NCBI RefSeq assembly: GCF_000472865.1
Contig: NZ_AXAP01000009.1
Coordinates: 62,001 to 126,000, forward strand
Length of the DNA: 64,000 bases
DNA from: Bradyrhizobium elkanii WSM2783
Lineage (GTDB): Bacteria; Pseudomonadota; Alphaproteobacteria; Rhizobiales; Xanthobacteraceae
Direction: 5' to 3'
The notes under the pieces are model-generated. The model did no database searches and was not told the origin of the DNA. It saw nothing but the letters and a program-made list of their open reading frames with translations. A program made the translations under genes and the position numbers. Shown piece by piece: positions 3,493-17,139 of this stretch; positions within the stretch are counted from its first letter, which is position 1, and each line of letters starts with the position of its first letter.

Positions 3493-4866
3493 ATGGCGGC
3501 ATCACACACGGGCAGCGCGACATGGTCCGGTTCGCTCCCCGGCAGCGGTTCGACCGTTTCGGTCCTCGTGGCCACGGCCATCGTGGTTGCCGACATGGTG
3601 GGCGTCGGCGTTTTCACCAGCCTCGGCTTTCAGGTCAAGGACATCCCGTCGGGCTTCTCGATCCTCCTGCTGTGGACCGTCGGTGGCATCGTCGCGCTGT
3701 GCGGCGTATTTTCCTACGGCGAACTCGGTGCGATGTTTCCGCGCTCGAGCGGCGAGTACAATTTCCTGAGCCGCGCCTATCATCCGGCGTTCGGATTCGT
3801 CGCCGGCTGGGTGTCGGCGACCGTGGGCTTCGCTGCGCCGGTCGCGCTCGCCGCTATGGCGTTCGGCGAATACGGCAAGTCGGTCTTGCCGGACGCGCCG
3901 CCGCTCGTGCTGGCGCTCGGCGTGGTGTGGCTGGTGTCGATCGTCCAACTCACCGGCGTCAAGCATTCCTCGACCTTCCAGCTGGTCGCGACCATCCTGA
4001 AGGTGGTGCTGATCGTCGGGTTTCTCGTCGCCGGATATTTGATCGCGACGCCGCAGCCGATCTCGTTCGCGCCGACCTCAGTCGATCTTTCCCATATCGT
4101 CAGCGCACCGTTCGCGATCAGCCTGGTGTTCGTGATGTATTCGTTCTCCGGCTGGAACGCGGCGACCTACATCATCGGCGAGATGCACCTGCCGGAGCGC
4201 AATTTGCCGCGCGCGATGCTCTCGGGAACGTTGATCGTGCTCGTGCTCTATGTCGCCCTGAACGCGGTGTTCCTCCACACCGCGCCAATCGACCAGCTTG
4301 CCGGCCAGATCGACGTCGCCCGCATTTCCGGCAGCTATATCTTCGGCGAGCTCGGCGGCCGCATTGTCGGCGCGATGATCTGTGTCGGGCTGATCTCCTC
4401 GATCAGCGCGATGATGTGGATCGGTCCGCGCGTGATGATGACGATGGGCGAGGACATCTCGGCGCTGCGGATCTTCGCCCGCCACTCGGCCAGCGGCGCG
4501 CCGGCCTATGCGATTCTGTTCCAGCTTGCGGTGGCGACGCTGATGCTGTTCACGCGCAGCTTCGAGGCGGTGCTGGACTTCATCCAGTTCGCGCTGCTGT
4601 TCTGCTCGTTCTTCACGGTAGCAGGCGTGATCAAGCTGCGCATCACGCGCCCCGACCTGCCGAGGCCTTACCGCGCCTGGGGATACCCGGTCACCCCTGT
4701 GGTTTTCCTGCTCGTGACCGGTCTCATGATGTACTATCTGTTGACCGACCGTCCGCTGCAGTCGGCGCTTGGCACTTTGATCATGCTTTCCGGCCTTTTG
4801 ATCTACGCCGTTTTCCGCAAAGGGGCGGCGCGCCCGGCGGCCGCCGGAGCATCGGGTCGCAAATGA
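3493..4866 (+). CDS. APC-family amino-acid permease
   Basis: 457 residues with about twelve membrane segments. The N-terminal region carries the helix-1 glycine-rich turn (ADMVGVGVF) characteristic of the amino acid-polyamine-organocation superfamily, where the substrate backbone binds. It would import or exchange an amino acid or amine across the inner membrane. GAAGG about 10 bases upstream supports the ATG at 3493. Its TGA overlaps the next ATG (ATGA at 4863-4866), so the two genes are translationally coupled and probably act together. Confidence 0.88.
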   Translation: MAASHTGSATWSGSLPGSGSTVSVLVATAIVVADMVGVGVFTSLGFQVKDIPSGFSILLLWTVGGIVALCGVFSYGELGAMFPRSSGEYNFLSRAYHPAFGFVAGWVSATVGFAAPVALAAMAFGEYGKSVLPDAPPLVLALGVVWLVSIVQLTGVKHSSTFQLVATILKVVLIVGFLVAGYLIATPQPISFAPTSVDLSHIVSAPFAISLVFVMYSFSGWNAATYIIGEMHLPERNLPRAMLSGTLIVLVLYVALNAVFLHTAPIDQLAGQIDVARISGSYIFGELGGRIVGAMICVGLISSISAMMWIGPRVMMTMGEDISALRIFARHSASGAPAYAILFQLAVATLMLFTRSFEAVLDFIQFALLFCSFFTVAGVIKLRITRPDLPRPYRAWGYPVTPVVFLLVTGLMMYYLLTDRPLQSALGTLIMLSGLLIYAVFRKGAARPAAAGASGRK

Positions 4867-6086
4867 GGAAGTTCTTGCCATTGAAAGCTGTCGCGCTCGC
4901 TTTCGCGATTCTGCTCGCGGCGCTGCCGGCGCGTGCCGCCGACACGGCGACCGCAGACGATACCGCGCGCTTCCTTGCCGGGATGATGCCGTCAGCGGAC
5001 TCTCCGCTGGTCCCGCTGACCAGGGATCCTGCCTGGCAACTGCATGCCCGATTCTTCGACCAGGCCTTTGCGCAGCTCGAGCAGCGCCAGCTGTCGAAGA
5101 TCCGCGCCTGGGCGGAGACCAATCTCGCCGCGCCGCGGCAGACCATGTTCTACATGTTCTCCGGGCCCGACTTCATCTACGCCGACGCCTTCTATTCCGG
5201 CGCGACGACCTATGTGCTCAGCGCGCTTGAGCCGGCCGGCTCGGTGCCGGACCTGACAAGACTGTCGCGTGGCGACGTCGGTGCCGCGCTCTACAGTGTC
5301 GAGCGCTCGCTATCTTCGGTCCTGAGCTTCTCCTTCTTCATTACCAAGAAGATGAAGGTCGACCTGCATGCAGGCGAGATCAGCGGCACCTTGCCGATCC
5401 TCTATGTGTTCCTGGCGCGCTCGGGCAAGACCATCCGGAGCGTCGCGCCGGTTGCGCTCGACGAGAACGGCATCGTCGGCACGGAAGGGGTAGGGAAGGG
5501 CGCGGCGCGCGGCGCGCGCATCACCTTCGCCGGCAATGATGGCGTCGAGCGCACGCTCTATTACTTCTCGACCGATCTCTCCAATTCAGGCGTCAAGGCG
5601 AGCGGCTTTTTGAAATTCTGCGAGACGCTTGCGCCCGGCAACAGCCTGATCAAGAGCGCCTCCTATCTCATGCACGCCGGCAATTTCACTGTTGTGCGCG
5701 ATTTCATCCTCAAGAACAGTGCCACCATCATCCAGGACGATTCCGGGATTCCGCTCGTGTACTTCAACCACAGCCGCTGGCGCTTCTTCCCGTTCGGCCG
5801 CTATGCCGGCCCGATCGCCGAATTCCCGGGCCGCTACCAGGAATCCTACGCCGAGCTGTTCCACCGCGCGCAGCCGATCGATTTCGGCATCGGCTATCGC
5901 TGGCGCACGCACGAAACCAACCTGCTGCTTGCCGTGCAATTGCCGGGTGATGGCTTCGGCACCGCCGATGCGGTGGCTCAGGATGCGCCAGCTCCCAAAC
6001 CGGCGCCGTCGCGTGCCAGGGCGCCCCGGCAGCCGGCGCCATTCTTCAGTTCGCAGCCCGGCGGTTTCTTCTGGTTTGGGCGCTAG
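4863..6086 (+). CDS. Periplasmic protein of unknown function coupled to the permease
   Basis: 407 residues beginning with a clear signal peptide (hydrophobic LAFAILLAALP, then ARAAD cleavage). The rest is soluble, with a Pro-rich tail ending in an aromatic patch (GGFFWFGR). No family was recognised. The same frame stays open upstream to 3423 inside the permease gene, but only the part from 4863 looks like protein. The four-base overlap with the permease suggests a role in the same transport or envelope process. A domain search would be needed for function. Confidence 0.8.
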   Translation: MRKFLPLKAVALAFAILLAALPARAADTATADDTARFLAGMMPSADSPLVPLTRDPAWQLHARFFDQAFAQLEQRQLSKIRAWAETNLAAPRQTMFYMFSGPDFIYADAFYSGATTYVLSALEPAGSVPDLTRLSRGDVGAALYSVERSLSSVLSFSFFITKKMKVDLHAGEISGTLPILYVFLARSGKTIRSVAPVALDENGIVGTEGVGKGAARGARITFAGNDGVERTLYYFSTDLSNSGVKASGFLKFCETLAPGNSLIKSASYLMHAGNFTVVRDFILKNSATIIQDDSGIPLVYFNHSRWRFFPFGRYAGPIAEFPGRYQESYAELFHRAQPIDFGIGYRWRTHETNLLLAVQLPGDGFGTADAVAQDAPAPKPAPSRARAPRQPAPFFSSQPGGFFWFGR

Positions 6087-11871: not shown

Positions 11872-11889
11872 ACTCAATACTTCTCATTG

Positions 11890-11905
11890 GCGCGCTGCAG
11901 CGCGC
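11890..11905. other. 16-bp perfect palindrome after hisI
   Basis: GCGCGCTGCAGCGCGC is a perfect palindrome 19 bases after the hisI stop. Without a T-run it is not a classical terminator; it may end the folE-hisI message or act as an operator for the cytochrome operon. Confidence 0.4.
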
Positions 11906-11959
11906 GGGCTGCGTTGCCAGCGCGCGCGTGATGTGCGAAAGTTCCCACTCTTCGTCGAG

Positions 11960-12685
11960 ATGGGGGTCGCGGCGGTGGCGCGTTACGTTTCTCTGATCCG
12001 ATTGTGTTTTGTTTTTTTCACGCTGCCATTTCTTCCGGCGGTGGCGCAAACACCGGAGCGCGCACCCGACACGATGGCCGCGCGCGTGCTCGCCTGCGCC
12101 TCCTGTCACGGCGCGCAAGGCGAGGGGACGAGCGACGTCTATTTCCCGCGCCTTGCCGGTAAGCCCGCAGGCTATCTTTATAATCAGCTCGTCGCGTTCA
12201 GGGATGGCCGGCGCAAATATCCGCCGATGAACTATCTCCTGGAATTTTTGCCCGACGACTACCTGAAGAAGATGGCCGACTATTTCGCCTCGTTGCGGCC
12301 CCCGTTCCCGGAGCCTGCGATTCCGACCGTCAGCGATGCGATTCTCGCGCGCGGCGAGTCGATCGTGAAGCATGGCGATACCCAGCGCGGCATTCCGCCC
12401 TGCGCGAGCTGCCACGGCCCGAGCTTCGGCGGCATGGAGCCCGCGATTCCCGGTCTGCTCGGTCTGCGTGCAAGCTATATCAGCGCCCAGCTCGGCGGCT
12501 GGCGCTACGGCACGCGCACCGCGGCCGCCCCCGATTGCATGCAGATCGTCGCAAGCCTTCTTACCGAAGACGATGTGAAGGCGGTCGCCGCCTATCTCTC
12601 ATCGCGTCCGGCGCCGGCAGACCCGTCGTTCGCGCCGCAAGGCAGTCTGCCGATGCCGCTTGCATGCGGCAGCGAGCCGCGTTGA
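11960..12685 (+). CDS. Diheme cytochrome c (c4-like)
   Basis: 241 residues from the ATG at 11960; a GTG at 11975 is an alternative. The N-terminal hydrophobic stretch ends PFLPAVAQ, a signal peptide. Two heme c sites, C46-A-S-C49-H50 and C148-A-S-C151-H152, define two similar cytochrome domains as in cytochrome c4. It would sit in the periplasm and carry electrons. As first gene of the oxidase operon it probably feeds electrons to the CuA subunit downstream. Confidence 0.86.
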   Translation: MGVAAVARYVSLIRLCFVFFTLPFLPAVAQTPERAPDTMAARVLACASCHGAQGEGTSDVYFPRLAGKPAGYLYNQLVAFRDGRRKYPPMNYLLEFLPDDYLKKMADYFASLRPPFPEPAIPTVSDAILARGESIVKHGDTQRGIPPCASCHGPSFGGMEPAIPGLLGLRASYISAQLGGWRYGTRTAAAPDCMQIVASLLTEDDVKAVAAYLSSRPAPADPSFAPQGSLPMPLACGSEPR

Positions 12686-12698
12686 AGGGAGCTCGCCG

Positions 12699-13955
12699 AT
12701 GCAACGCCTCTCTACCAAGCTGATTCTCCTTCTGGCGCTGTGCTTCGCCGGCATGACACCGGCAACTGCACAGCAGAACCCGCCCGCCAATGCCGAGCTG
12801 CTCAAGAAGGGTGAGTATCTCGCCCGCGCCGGCGACTGCATCGCCTGCCATACCGCGCGCGAAGGCAAGACCTTTGCCGGCGGGCTGCCGATGAAGACGC
12901 CGTTCGGCACGCTCTACACCTCCAACATCACGCCCGATCCGCAGACCGGCATCGGCACCTGGACCTCGGACCAGTTCTACCGGATGATGCATGATGGCCG
13001 CTTCCCGGACGGCGGTCTCGTCTATCCCGCGATGCCGTTCGGCTCCTATACCAAGGTGACGCGCGAGGACTCCGATGCGATCTACGCCTATTTGCGTTCG
13101 GTCCCGCCGGTGAAGCAGGTCAACAAACCGCACGAATTGACCTTTCCCTTCAACAATCGCTCTCTGATCATCGGCTGGCGCACGCTGTTCTTCAACGAAG
13201 GCGAGTTCAAGCCCGATCCGACCAAGTCGGCGGAATGGAACAGGGGCGCCTATCTGGTCGAAGGTCTCGGCCATTGCGGCATGTGCCACACCGCGATCAA
13301 CGCGCTCGGCGGCAGCTCGGAATCGCAGGCGTTCGAGGGCGGCCTCATTCCGATGCAGTACTGGTACGCGCCGTCGCTCACCTCGAACAAGGAAGCGGGG
13401 CTGGGCGAGTGGAGCATCCAGGAAATCGTCGACTATCTGCGCACCGGCGTCTCTGCGCGCGGCGCGGTCTACGGGCCGATGGCGGAAGTCGTCTACAACA
13501 GCCTGCAATATCTCAACGACGAGGACATCCGCGCGATGGCGGTCTACCTGAAGGGCCTCGCGCAGGGCACCTCGCCGGACAAGCCGCCGCCGGCGCTGCC
13601 AACTGCCGAGAGCAGCCTTCTGCTCTCGCTCGGCAAGCAGATCTATGACCGCGATTGCGCAAGCTGCCACGGCGCGACCGGGCTCGGCATGCCGCCGCAT
13701 TATCCGCCGCTCGCCGCCAACCAGTCGATCCAGATGGCCTCGGCGGTGAATGCCATCCGCATGGTGCTCAATGGCGGCTATCCGCCGGGCACCGCGGGCA
13801 ACCCGATGCCCTATGGCATGCCGCCCTTCGCGCAGCGCCTCTCCGACGATGAGGTCGCCGCCGTCGTCACTTACATCAGGACATCCTGGGGCAATCGCGG
13901 TGCGCCGGTATCGGCGCGGCAGGCCAATGAATTGCGCACGGCTACGCTGAAGTAG
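12699..13955 (+). CDS. Triheme cytochrome c, alcohol-dehydrogenase type
   Basis: 418 residues from the ATG at 12699 behind GGGAG. Signal peptide about 1-25. Three heme sites: C47-I-A-C50-H51, C193-G-M-C196-H197 and C320-A-S-C323-H324. The pattern (GDCIACHT, GHCGMCHT, CASCHG) matches the membrane-bound cytochrome subunit of quinoprotein alcohol and gluconate dehydrogenases. No dehydrogenase gene is adjacent, so it may link the quinol pool or another donor to the oxidase. Its stop codon overlaps a short fragment of the TAGAGCATGAT repeat. Confidence 0.87.
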   Translation: MQRLSTKLILLLALCFAGMTPATAQQNPPANAELLKKGEYLARAGDCIACHTAREGKTFAGGLPMKTPFGTLYTSNITPDPQTGIGTWTSDQFYRMMHDGRFPDGGLVYPAMPFGSYTKVTREDSDAIYAYLRSVPPVKQVNKPHELTFPFNNRSLIIGWRTLFFNEGEFKPDPTKSAEWNRGAYLVEGLGHCGMCHTAINALGGSSESQAFEGGLIPMQYWYAPSLTSNKEAGLGEWSIQEIVDYLRTGVSARGAVYGPMAEVVYNSLQYLNDEDIRAMAVYLKGLAQGTSPDKPPPALPTAESSLLLSLGKQIYDRDCASCHGATGLGMPPHYPPLAANQSIQMASAVNAIRMVLNGGYPPGTAGNPMPYGMPPFAQRLSDDEVAAVVTYIRTSWGNRGAPVSARQANELRTATLK

Positions 13956-13969
13956 AGCATGATCTGGAG
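13954..13969. repeat. Fragment of the TAGAGCATGAT repeat
   Basis: AGAGCATGATCTGGAG matches the left end of the repeat at 1797 and 36896 with one change; the right half is missing. The preceding T makes TAG the stop codon of the triheme cytochrome gene. Confidence 0.5.
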
Positions 13970-13981
13970 AAGGGGTGGGCC

Positions 13982-14155
13982 ATGACGGATTCATCCTCGC
14001 AAGGGCGGGCGCAGCATTCCGATGACGAGGCGGTCGACGCGATCGTGCGCGCAGGTCCCGGCGGTGCGATTGCGGTGGCGGGCATCGCGACCGCGATCGT
14101 CGTCGCTTTATGGTTCGCCTTCTATCTCTTCGTCTTCCTGCCGCGGAGCGCCTGA
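13982..14155 (+). CDS. Small membrane subunit of the class B oxidase (57 aa)
   Basis: 57 residues: a polar acidic N-terminal 25 residues, then one membrane helix (about 28-53) ending LPRSA. GGAGAAGGGG precedes the ATG. It lies just before subunit II, the stop falling 2 bases before the next GTG, so it belongs to the oxidase operon. Position, size and single helix resemble the small subunit IIa (CbaD) of ba3 oxidases, though sequence identity to it cannot be claimed from reading alone. Confidence 0.78.
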   Translation: MTDSSSQGRAQHSDDEAVDAIVRAGPGGAIAVAGIATAIVVALWFAFYLFVFLPRSA

Positions 14156-14157
14156 TC

Positions 14158-14736
14158 GTGACCAGTGAGACCGATCATAGTCACGGCGCGCATGGCCTCG
14201 GCGAGGCGGTTGCCGCGCGCATCGAGCGGCGCTGGGCAACGTTGTCGATCGTGATCATCGGCGTGCTCGTCGGCTTGGCCGCCTTCTTCGGCATCTACCA
14301 TACGACGATGCCGCAGGGTCGCGTCGAGACCGCCGATCCCACGACCTTGCATCTTTCCGGCGAATTCGTCGAAAGCAACCTTGGCAGCGCGCTGGAGGCC
14401 GACGGCTCCGTCACGGTGCGCGCGATCGGGCAGCAATATTCATTCACCCCGCAATGCCTCGTGGTACCGGCGGAAACGCCGATCACCGTTCGCGCCACCA
14501 GCGCCGACGTCGTGCACGGCTTCCTGATCGAGGGCACCAACATCAACGTCATGCTGGTGCCGGGCTATGTTTCGGATCTGCCGATCAGCTTCAAGACGCC
14601 GGGCGAACACATGATGCCGTGCCAGGAATTCTGCGGCATCGGCCATCAGGGCATGTGGGGCAAGGTCAAGGTGGTCGACCAGGCTACGTTCCGCAACATG
14701 GCGGCGAGCAAACGGAGGCTCACCTGTGTTGATTAA
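14158..14736 (+). CDS. Class B cytochrome c oxidase subunit II (CuA)
   Basis: 192 residues from GTG at 14158, immediately after the preceding stop; the frame is open upstream to 14110. One N-terminal membrane helix (about 27-48) anchors a periplasmic cupredoxin domain with the full CuA site: His120, Cys155, Glu157, Cys159, His163, Met166 (CQEFCGIGHQGM). It receives electrons from a cytochrome c. The short form with a single helix is typical of ba3-type enzymes. The end overlaps subunit I by 11 bases. Confidence 0.93.
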   Translation: MTSETDHSHGAHGLGEAVAARIERRWATLSIVIIGVLVGLAAFFGIYHTTMPQGRVETADPTTLHLSGEFVESNLGSALEADGSVTVRAIGQQYSFTPQCLVVPAETPITVRATSADVVHGFLIEGTNINVMLVPGYVSDLPISFKTPGEHMMPCQEFCGIGHQGMWGKVKVVDQATFRNMAASKRRLTCVD

Positions 14737-16351
14737 CAAGCGGCTGATCCTGGCGCATTTCTGGCTCGCCTTCATCGTCTTCGGCGCGGCGCTGGTGCTC
14801 GGCGCCTGGCAGATGTTCGTGCGCAGCCCGCTGAACGCCTGGCACTTCAATCCGGAATTCTATTATCGCTCGGTCACCGCGCACGGCACGGTGATGGGCT
14901 ATGTGTTCCCGACCCTGATCGCGATGGGCTTTGGCTACGCCATCAGCGAAGCGGCGCTGGAGCGGCCGCTGATCGGGCGGCGCTGGGCCTGGGCCGGCAT
15001 CGCGCTGGTCGCGATCGGCAGCGTGATGGCGATGATCCCGGTCTCGCTCGGACTCGCCTCCGTGCTCTACACCTTCTATCCGCCGATGATCGGCAATCCC
15101 TTTTATTACATCGGCGTTGTCCTGGTCGTGGTCGGCTCATGGGTCTGGGTCGCGCTGATGTCGATCAATCTCGCGGTCTGGAAGCGCGACAACCGCGACA
15201 AGCCGGTGCCGCTCGCGATGTTCGCCAATGTCGCCGGCTCCTATCTCTGGGCCTGGACCGCGGTCGGCGCTGCGGTCGAGCTGATTTTCCAGATCATTCC
15301 GACCGCGCTTGGGCTCACCACCACCATCGACGCCGGACTGGCGCGCGTATTCTTCTCCTGGACATTGCACGCCATCGTCTATTTCTGGCTGATCCCGACC
15401 TACATCGCATATTACACCATCTTCCCGCGGGCGATCGGGGGTCGGCTCTACAGCGACGCGATGGGGCGGGTTGCCTTCATCATGTTCGTCGTGGTCGCGA
15501 TGCCGATCGGCGTGCATCATTTGTTTGCCGATCCGCAGGTCGGCGCCGGCTTCAAGTTCATGCAATCGGTGTTCACCGGTCTCGTCGCGCTGCCGACGCT
15601 GCTCACGGTATTCACGATCTGCGCGTCTGCGGAGATCGCGAGCCGGCTGCGCGGGGGCAGGGGCGCGTTCGGCTGGATCGGCGCGCTGCCGTGGAAGAAT
15701 CCGATCATGCTCGCGACCGCGCTGTCGCTCGTGATGCTTGGCTTCGGCGGCGCCGGCGGGCTCATCAACATGAGCTATCAGCTCAACACCAGCATCCACA
15801 ACACGCAATGGATCACCGGCCACTTCCATTTGATCTTCGGCGGCGCCATCGTCATCATGTATTTCGCGATCGCCTATGACCTGTGGCCGCATTTGACCGG
15901 CCGCACGCTGGATAGTTACGGGATGATGCGCACCCAGCTCTGGCTGTGGTTCATCGGCATGATCGTCACAACGTTCCCGTGGCACTATGTCGGCATCCTC
16001 GGCATGCCGCGTCGCATGGCGTTCTATGACTACGCCAATCCCGCGATCGCGCCGCAGGCCCTCTCGGTGACGATGTCGGCGTTCGGAGGATTGATCCTGC
16101 TGACGTCAGGTATCCTGTTCCTGATCGTGCTGATCCGCGGCCAGTTCGCGCCGAGGGGCGAGGCGGGCGCCTATCGCTTTGCCATCCCCTTGCACATGCC
16201 TGTGCGCATTCCGGTTGCACTCAACAGTTTTGGATTGTGGCTGGCGCTCATGATCGGGCTGACGGTCGTCAACTACGGCTATCCGATCGGCCAACTGATG
16301 GCCGTGAAGAATACCAGCGTGCCTGCCGTTTATGTCGGAGCCAGCAGATGA
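14726..16351 (+). CDS. Class B (ba3-type) heme-copper oxidase subunit I
   Basis: 541 residues from GTG at 14726, behind GGAGG. About thirteen membrane helices. Ligands: His53 and His368 for the low-spin heme, His215, His264 and His265 for CuB, His366 for the high-spin heme, and Tyr219 four residues after His215, the cross-linked His-Tyr pair. The overall pattern (LHAIVYFWLIP, VHHLF, TGHFHLIFGG) is that of class B oxidases, which reduce O2 with a single K proton channel and high oxygen affinity. Its TGA overlaps the next ATG. Confidence 0.94.
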   Translation: MLINKRLILAHFWLAFIVFGAALVLGAWQMFVRSPLNAWHFNPEFYYRSVTAHGTVMGYVFPTLIAMGFGYAISEAALERPLIGRRWAWAGIALVAIGSVMAMIPVSLGLASVLYTFYPPMIGNPFYYIGVVLVVVGSWVWVALMSINLAVWKRDNRDKPVPLAMFANVAGSYLWAWTAVGAAVELIFQIIPTALGLTTTIDAGLARVFFSWTLHAIVYFWLIPTYIAYYTIFPRAIGGRLYSDAMGRVAFIMFVVVAMPIGVHHLFADPQVGAGFKFMQSVFTGLVALPTLLTVFTICASAEIASRLRGGRGAFGWIGALPWKNPIMLATALSLVMLGFGGAGGLINMSYQLNTSIHNTQWITGHFHLIFGGAIVIMYFAIAYDLWPHLTGRTLDSYGMMRTQLWLWFIGMIVTTFPWHYVGILGMPRRMAFYDYANPAIAPQALSVTMSAFGGLILLTSGILFLIVLIRGQFAPRGEAGAYRFAIPLHMPVRIPVALNSFGLWLALMIGLTVVNYGYPIGQLMAVKNTSVPAVYVGASR

Positions 16352-17139
16352 GCGAGGAGGAGCTCTATTCGCCGCGCAATCCCTGGTTCAGCATCAGCGT
16401 CGGCGTCACCGCCGCCATCGCGGTGCTGTCCGCGGTCGTGGGATTGATCTGGCTGCCGCTGCTGCAGCCCAATCTGAAGCTTGCCGGCATCTGGGATGCG
16501 ATCTGCAGCGCAGCCGGCGTGCCGAACCTGCCGAGGCCCGCCGCGGCGGTCCCGCCTGCGTTCAAGACGTCGAATGTCGTGGTCACTCCGGAAATGCTGA
16601 CACGGCAGGATCAGGTGTCGATCGGCCGTGGCGCGACGCTCGCGCAGCGCTGCGCGATCTGCCATGGGCCGCAGGGCGTCAGCGACGCTAACTCGCCGAA
16701 CCTCGCCGGGCAGTACGCCGCGGTGACGTACAAGGAGTTGAACGACTTCAAGACCGGGGCGCGGGTCAACGTCGTCATGAGCCCGTTCGCGGCCAATATG
16801 ACCGACCAGGACATGCGCGATGTCGCGCTCTATTACGCCTATCTGCCGCGTGTGCCTTCCAGTCAGGTCAATCTGAACCTGCCGCCGCCTGCGATCGTGG
16901 TGACGGGCGCGCCGATGCGCAACATCCCGCCCTGCGGCTCCTGCCACGGCGAAATCGACATCAAGGCCGGCAGCCCCTGGCTCGGCGGCCAGTCCGCCGT
17001 CTATATCAAGTCGCAGTTGCAGGCCTTCGCGTCGGGCACCCGCCGCAACGACATCAGCGAGCAGATGCGCAATATCGCCCGCCAGATGACCGCGGAAGAG
17101 ATCGATCAGGTCGCGCGGTATTACGAGGCGCAGCCGTAA
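16348..17139 (+). CDS. Membrane-anchored diheme cytochrome c
   Basis: 263 residues from the ATG at 16348, which overlaps the subunit I stop (ATGA). An uncleaved membrane helix (about 14-38) anchors two cytochrome domains with C102-A-I-C105-H106 and C196-G-S-C199-H200. It probably shuttles electrons to the CuA subunit, acting as a tethered donor. It is the last gene of the oxidase operon; the intergenic region after it holds a CtrA box for the next gene. Confidence 0.87.
   Translation: MSEEELYSPRNPWFSISVGVTAAIAVLSAVVGLIWLPLLQPNLKLAGIWDAICSAAGVPNLPRPAAAVPPAFKTSNVVVTPEMLTRQDQVSIGRGATLAQRCAICHGPQGVSDANSPNLAGQYAAVTYKELNDFKTGARVNVVMSPFAANMTDQDMRDVALYYAYLPRVPSSQVNLNLPPPAIVVTGAPMRNIPPCGSCHGEIDIKAGSPWLGGQSAVYIKSQLQAFASGTRRNDISEQMRNIARQMTAEEIDQVARYYEAQP

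Follow-up and report, generated by a model that had tools for sequence, protein, structure and literature searches.

A Co-inherited, Probably Mobile Class B Oxidase Operon with Seven Heme c Motifs in Bradyrhizobium elkanii and Its Relatives

The window examined here is a 64,000-nucleotide stretch of the Bradyrhizobium elkanii WSM2783 genome (contig NZ_AXAP01000009.1, positions 62,001 to 126,000), which contains, at positions 11960-17139, six genes in a single direction for a class B (ba3-type) heme-copper oxidase, a 57-residue membrane peptide, and three c-type cytochromes. Judged from sequence, the operon is real and conserved, and it is probably functional. The reading that we favor, with reasonable rather than strong confidence, is that the six genes form a co-inherited, probably mobile oxidase module with its own delivery chain, and that the family probably serves at low oxygen and in contact with nitric oxide (NO).

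Composition of the Operon

The set is flanked by hisI (Pfam PRA-CH) and a transglycosylase SLT-domain gene, and has the following layout (window coordinates, strand, description).

11872-11959, + strand: spacer of 88 bp separating hisI from the operon; site of an FNR/FixK-type box in eight syntenic relatives, with no box in the window copy
11960-12685, + strand: cycA, diheme c4-type cytochrome; CASCH twice; signal-peptide-like N-terminal hydrophobic stretch
12699-13955, + strand: triheme cytochrome c, AdhB/GdhB-type; CIACH, CGMCH, and CASCH; lacks the C-terminal extension of dehydrogenase-bound relatives
13982-14155, + strand: 57-residue single-helix membrane peptide, probable homologue of ba3 subunit IIa (CoxIIa)
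14158-14736, + strand: subunit II, GTG start; CuA site H120, C155, C159, H163, M166
14726-16351, + strand: subunit I, class B (ba3-type), GTG start; H53, H215, H264, H265, H366, H368, Y219
16348-17139, + strand: cycB, diheme c4-type cytochrome; N-terminal membrane helix at residues 12-43

An earlier note on this DNA had described six packed genes with seven heme c motifs. All reading frames and CxxCH counts were confirmed (two motifs in cycA, three in the triheme gene, and two in cycB, seven in total). Its remark that several genes overlap holds for two pairs, subunits II and I (11 bp) and subunit I and cycB (4 bp); the other three pairs are close without overlapping, at 13 bp (cycA to triheme gene), 26 bp (triheme gene to 57-residue peptide), and 2 bp (peptide to subunit II). 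These distances rest on the chosen start codons, GTG being taken for subunits II and I. A consensus scan of the region for promoters and terminators gave no clear excess, which is weak evidence on separate transcription.

Conservation of the Six-gene Unit

A genome scan with one genome per species (84,980 species) yielded 187 relatives of subunit I, of which the best 80 were kept (73-97% identity in the best segment). Plasmid records gave 43 further subunit I matches, 22 at 66-78% identity and 21 below 60%, the best of the latter listed being 38% identical. The comparison comprised 100 rows: 80 genome loci, 16 plasmid loci, the window, and the loci L089, L105, and L106. Setting aside L089, which is the window's own locus again, cut, left 99 distinct loci, among which L105 and L106 may duplicate genomes of the 80.

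At 94 of the 99 distinct loci that carry a close subunit I, each of the six genes was matched and their order was the same, so the unit is no chance cluster. The 94 include two loci in which one gene is partly cut by a contig end (L054 and L073) and two with at least one broken gene (L120 and L123); these four were excluded from the 90 rows used for the ligand, distance, and tree analyses. The end of the stored stretch removes cycA in L064, L105, and L106 and cycB in L049. The sole real exception is Paraburkholderia PGU19 (L117), which has neither cycA nor the triheme gene and instead encodes, at plasmid positions 6058-6693, a P460-family cytochrome with one CxxCH (Pfam E 9.6e-27); the rest of its oxidase operon matches.

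The tight packing recurs as well. With starts extrapolated from the window, the genes for subunits II and I share 11 or 14 bp in all but two of 100 rows, and the subunit I gene shares 4 or 1 bp with cycB in 91 of 99. The largest gap within the unit over the 94 loci is 213 bp, so no dehydrogenase lies inside it. Subunit I distances correlated with those of the three cytochromes with r values of 0.893, 0.869, and 0.908 (90 rows), and all pairs among the six genes fell between 0.71 and 0.93, the 57-residue peptide being lowest; both sets of values were obtained without an outside control gene. The suggestion of a self-contained electron chain is sustained in one part, the delivery cytochromes being a fixed part of the oxidase at the 94 loci. 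Its other part, a start at a specific periplasmic donor, gains no support, and the unit encodes no donor dehydrogenase.

The heme ratio, which had been called unusual, does stand out in a small sample: seven hemes c exceed the number in each of four other class B operons compared. The Methylobacterium radiotolerans operon has 2 + 2 CxxCH motifs, that of Deinococcus one c-type gene, that of Haloarcula a halocyanin, and that of PGU19 a diheme protein in addition to a single upstream CxxCH.

The Oxidase Core

Subunit I matched Pfam COX1 with an E-value of 5e-79, and its closest solved structure was the Thermus thermophilus ba3 oxidase (E 6.6e-91); subunit II matched ba3 subunit II with an E-value of 3e-30, with the CuA motif aligned. 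Roles were assigned by alignment to the Thermus enzyme, using the residues that we take to be its ligands. H215, Y219, H264, H265, H366, and H368 of subunit I are kept in 90 of 90 rows, H53 in 89, and the CuA ligands of subunit II likewise in 89. The heme and CuB histidines, the active-site tyrosine, and the CuA site of a class B oxidase are thus all present, and their (near-)invariance argues that the family reduces O2; on its sequence, this is a family of O2 reductases.

The 57-residue peptide has one hydrophobic helix in a hydropathy scan. The window copy scored 14.5 bits against Pfam CoxIIa, under the 20.7-bit cut-off, and 22 of 31 members of the peptide family matched this model weakly, at E-values up to 0.1 (best 0.0018). 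When the family profile was compared with the PDB, the top match was ba3 subunit IIa (E 0.016), the next other protein being at 1.1. The peptide is probably, if not provenly, subunit IIa.

The Three Cytochromes

CycA and CycB each consist of two tandem class I heme domains, as in cytochrome c4, and matched cytochrome c4 (6q2u) with E-values of 5.3e-26 and 8.4e-24, respectively; for CycA, a 526-residue chain labeled just "Cytochrome C" scored slightly better (E 1.2e-26). Two CxxCH motifs were found in cycB in 98 of 98 rows. The triheme protein has three in 94 of 99 rows; in the remaining five the gene either runs off the stored stretch (four rows) or is broken (L120). In L120, a Burkholderia contaminans plasmid, the triheme region (∼4338-5686) is apparently broken, with one CxxCH in a 220-residue frame.

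The triheme protein matched the cytochrome subunit of quinone alcohol dehydrogenase over nearly its full length (E 6.2e-83), and its nearest relatives are the cytochrome subunits of alcohol, glucose, fructose, and aldehyde dehydrogenases. Alignments stop at residue 436 of 478 in 8gy2, 426 of 482 in 8hdd, and 440 of 486 in 7w2j; the protein accordingly lacks the C-terminal extension (last 42-56 residues) of these dehydrogenase-bound relatives, which we take to be a membrane anchor. A hydropathy scan of the window protein gave a hydrophobic stretch at the N terminus only. The chain ends 99 residues past the start of the third CxxCH in 92 of 94 three-motif proteins and earlier in the other two. 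Three CxxCH motifs and family similarity place it with AdhB-type cytochromes; a partner dehydrogenase in the unit and the C-terminal extension are absent.

This kinship with dehydrogenase subunits speaks for the strongest alternative, a donor-specific chain such as the earlier note had suggested, in which the triheme cytochrome would dock one or more periplasmic dehydrogenases for alcohols, sugars, or aldehydes encoded elsewhere and pass their electrons to O2, bypassing bc1. The upstream position can also look donor-chosen in other operons: M. radiotolerans has a SoxA/TsdA-domain cytochrome in its second slot, near genes annotated as MBL-fold hydrolase, YeeE/YedE, and TauE/SafE, and PGU19 has cytochrome P460. 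The small gaps within the unit at the 94 loci, which leave no room for a dehydrogenase gene, the lack of any flank gene common to most loci, and the missing C-terminal extension all count against such a donor-specific chain, which we regard as possible and no better than that.

Slightly less probable is an ordinary additional terminal oxidase that draws its electrons from bc1 and the shared pool of cytochrome c, with the three cytochromes as mere redundant carriers. Bacteria of this group commonly possess bc1 and soluble cytochromes c, and the WSM2783 genome, which has ten COX1-family loci including a NorB-like one, carries this subunit I once. Redundant carriers, however, should have been lost in some lineages, and 94 of the 95 loci without a whole-gene cut-off, in two bacterial classes, keep all three beside the oxidase; a few copies (L120 and L123) have a broken cytochrome gene. 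An oxidase with a dedicated, co-inherited cytochrome set remains our preferred reading of these data.

Distribution and Transfer of the Family

Among 289 alphaproteobacterial genomes, the only close subunit I copy was the window's own, the next being 29% identical, and subunit I sequences at least 72% identical occurred in 5 of 398 genomes of the phylum. Within Bradyrhizobium, 48 of 98 genomes have a close copy, 13 of type I (the window's type) and 35 of type II. Loci with the six genes also occur in Rhizobium, Methylobacterium, Mesorhizobium, Burkholderia sensu lato, Variovorax, Janthinobacterium, and others. Transposase genes bracket the plasmid-borne copies of Janthinobacterium, Burkholderia contaminans, and Methylobacterium sp. 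XJLW.

The type I and type II operons of Bradyrhizobium lie in different genome places and apart in the subunit I tree, with open forks between them, so the two types look as if acquired twice. One Bradyrhizobium genome (G662) carries two operon copies, and in one type II genome (G746, contig C85) subunit I is in two pieces. The tree, built by a quick method and unrooted, requires just two changes for the betaproteobacterial rows, so old transfers between classes appear to have been few; as the outgroups were too long for root placement, transfers were left undirected.

Alphaproteobacteria are already known to include carriers of ba3-like oxidases (PMC4013037). One paper (PMC9104464) states that Burkholderia has no class B or C oxidases. 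Plasmid sequences from B. contaminans, B. aenigmatica, and B. vietnamiensis (L120, L128, and one plasmid match) carry class B subunit I genes of the family, which contradicts that statement for several strains.

Upstream Motifs and Neighboring Genes

The FNR/FixK-type box, which we take to be TTGATN4ATCAA, was sought 100-500 bp ahead of the first cycA heme codon at 94 loci including the window (L054 and L103 were dropped). Exact boxes were present at 12 loci (eight type I Bradyrhizobium, two Burkholderia, one Caballeronia, and one Paraburkholderia), compared with a shuffle mean of 0.04 (largest 1). Allowing up to one mismatch raised the count to 26 of 94, against a shuffle mean of 1.31 (largest 5). 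The density of boxes upstream was 35 times that in the remainder of the loci, and the type I Bradyrhizobium boxes, eight in all, sit just past hisI. A sigma-54/NorR promoter was rejected as a shared upstream element, a loose scan giving just scattered weak matches at no shared position.

Genes connected with NO stand beside the operon in some relatives. The stored flanks extend 8-10 kb and are often cut, and the gene exemplars came from L030, L080, L115, L118, L121, L124, and L126, which therefore match themselves. With these, hmp, nnrS, or nirK was found in the flanks of 15 of 96 loci, 10 of the 80 genome loci (L026, L031, L041, L042, L055, L060, L068, L077, L080, and L081) and 5 of the 16 plasmid loci (L115, L121, L124, L127, and L130). 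Seven Burkholderiales loci have hmp with norR; two Rhizobium and one Methylobacterium have hmp with an Rrf2-type regulator; Mesorhizobium and two metagenome-assembled genomes have nirK with a sulfatase-modifying-factor-like gene; and nnrS is near the operon in six loci. Because the rows are related, these represent a handful of separate arrangements and not fifteen events.

In 32 genomes (∼227 Mb), 8 of 35 Hmp copies lay in operon flanks against ∼0.085 expected, and 3 of 19 above-cut-off NnrS copies against ∼0.05 expected, by our own arithmetic. The 32 were chosen from the 80 and almost all come from outside the Bradyrhizobium isolates. They take in each of the 80 genomes with Hmp or NnrS seen close to the operon, which somewhat inflates the enrichment. 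Among Bradyrhizobium genomes, 29 of the 35 with a type II copy have nirK, compared with 24 of the 50 that have no copy (Fisher p 0.0014).

Several observations weigh against extending a low-oxygen or NO role to the window, and some against the role itself. The window has no FNR box with up to two mismatches in the 650 bp ahead of the first heme codon, and a looser FixK box search upstream found none; the remaining eight type I relatives likewise have no box, nor do 18 of 18 other Bradyrhizobium loci. The NO-gene exemplars match nowhere in the 64-kb window, hmp, nnrS, and nirK neighbors number 0 of 16 in its syntenic group (L009-L024), and the 18 other Bradyrhizobium loci have none of the three as a neighbor; four of these 18 partially match a NorR-like sigma-54 regulator. 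nirK is not associated with the window's type I copy (4 of 13 versus 24 of 50, p 0.35), and its association with any copy is weak (33 of 48 versus 24 of 50, p 0.043); as the rows are related and kinship is uncorrected, all these p values overstate the significance. Gene proximity, moreover, is not function. According to PMC8780969, the oxidases tested there showed substantially lower NO reductase activity than true NO reductases. The low-oxygen/NO link is indicated by regulation and neighbors in part of the relatives, and neither indication holds for the window copy.

The window's genome itself carries nirK. One locus of it (L139, C113:164500-176500) encodes NirK, a NorB-like protein (weak ccoN-type match), a NorQ-like ATPase (GvpN-type match), and a COX3-like protein, and the genome probably holds part of a denitrification pathway. 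That the enzyme is mainly an NO reductase is very improbable: NO-gene neighbors in part of the relatives and the NO reductase activity reported for Thermus ba3 (PMC8780969) favor it, and against it stand the NirK and NorB-like/NorQ-like cluster already in this genome and the oxidase tyrosine (H-A-I-V-Y). This tyrosine does not vary across the 90 rows, which is why NO reduction was rejected as the main function.

No universal partner gene emerged among the 45 largest open reading frame clusters listed from the flanks, which group mostly within lineages. The commonest outside neighbor was a carboxymuconolactone-decarboxylase/AhpD-like gene, named by eye and after a similar annotated gene in L122, at 18 of 80 loci in Rhizobiales and Burkholderiales (for example, L030 15015-15470 and L055 4232-4684).

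Proposed Electron Path

In the model that we prefer, the six genes would be transcribed together, and a periplasmic donor would reduce the unanchored triheme cytochrome, the soluble diheme CycA, or both. These would then reduce the membrane-anchored diheme CycB, which may stay docked on the oxidase and pass electrons to CuA. From there, electrons would move through heme b to the heme a3/CuB site, where O2 would be reduced to water. Across the family, the enzyme would act as a high-affinity, NO-tolerant oxidase at low oxygen and may slowly reduce NO. For comparison, Thermus ba3 is described as used almost solely at low oxygen (PMC6696091) and as reducing NO to N2O (PMC8780969).

A more speculative extension, which we think doubtful, would be an exchangeable input slot, in which one oxidase core accepts a triheme AdhB-like, SoxA/TsdA-like, or P460-type cytochrome as evolution swaps donors; in the seven-heme form, the hemes might store electrons, so that the oxidase would stay reduced and working, and could remove NO, when oxygen is at trace levels and nitrosative stress prevails. 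The slot idea derives from two comparators, the SoxA/TsdA-type second cytochrome of M. radiotolerans and the P460 of PGU19.

Comparison with Known Systems

Subunits I and II, the ligands, and the active-site tyrosine align with those of Thermus thermophilus ba3, whose subunit IIa is the top match of the 57-residue profile. The Thermus gene order is presumably IIa-II-I, like that of the window operon. By contrast, the window unit adds three dedicated cytochromes with seven hemes c, and its 57-residue peptide is longer than the 34-residue IIa. The quinone dehydrogenase cytochrome subunits (8gy2, 8hdd, and 7w2j) resemble the triheme protein over nearly its full length, including three CxxCH motifs in the window protein, but differ in that the window unit has no dehydrogenase gene and its protein stops short of their last 42-56 residues. 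Cytochrome c4 (6q2u, with the same sequence in 8smr and 8snh) is diheme, as are CycA and CycB; entry 8snh also contains a cbb3 oxidase subunit chain, whereas the window has two c4-type proteins, one anchored, beside a class B oxidase.

The M. radiotolerans plasmid pNYY1_4 operon (L116, 5520-10913; subunit I 38% identical) shares the order cytochrome, cytochrome, small peptide, II, I. It differs in its SoxA/TsdA-like second cytochrome and in having no cycB, with SCO and CtaG next. Annotated MBL-fold hydrolase, YeeE/YedE, and sulfite exporter TauE/SafE genes lie nearby, and this operon looks like a sulfur-compound-to-oxygen unit.

A distant group at 26-30% identity also comprises B-family heme-copper oxidases with a CuA subunit. 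Its tyrosine site, readable in 6 of the 16 loci listed, reads H-V-A/S-V/I-W-Y. We take altered residues at this site to be the mark of eNOR; the window family does not have them. The distant group is probably ba3-a1/eNOR (PMC8879329).

No description of the six-gene operon was recognized in the literature searches made, judged by titles and abstract openings, most subscription papers being out of reach. The parts are familiar, and the fixed cytochrome set appears to be what is new. It would add a co-inherited, partly plasmid-borne oxidase with its own seven-heme delivery chain to the respiratory systems known from rhizobia and Burkholderia relatives. If the low-oxygen/NO link is true, the module would be relevant to respiration in nodules and denitrifying soils, and the swapped upstream cytochromes make what feeds a class B oxidase a directly testable question.

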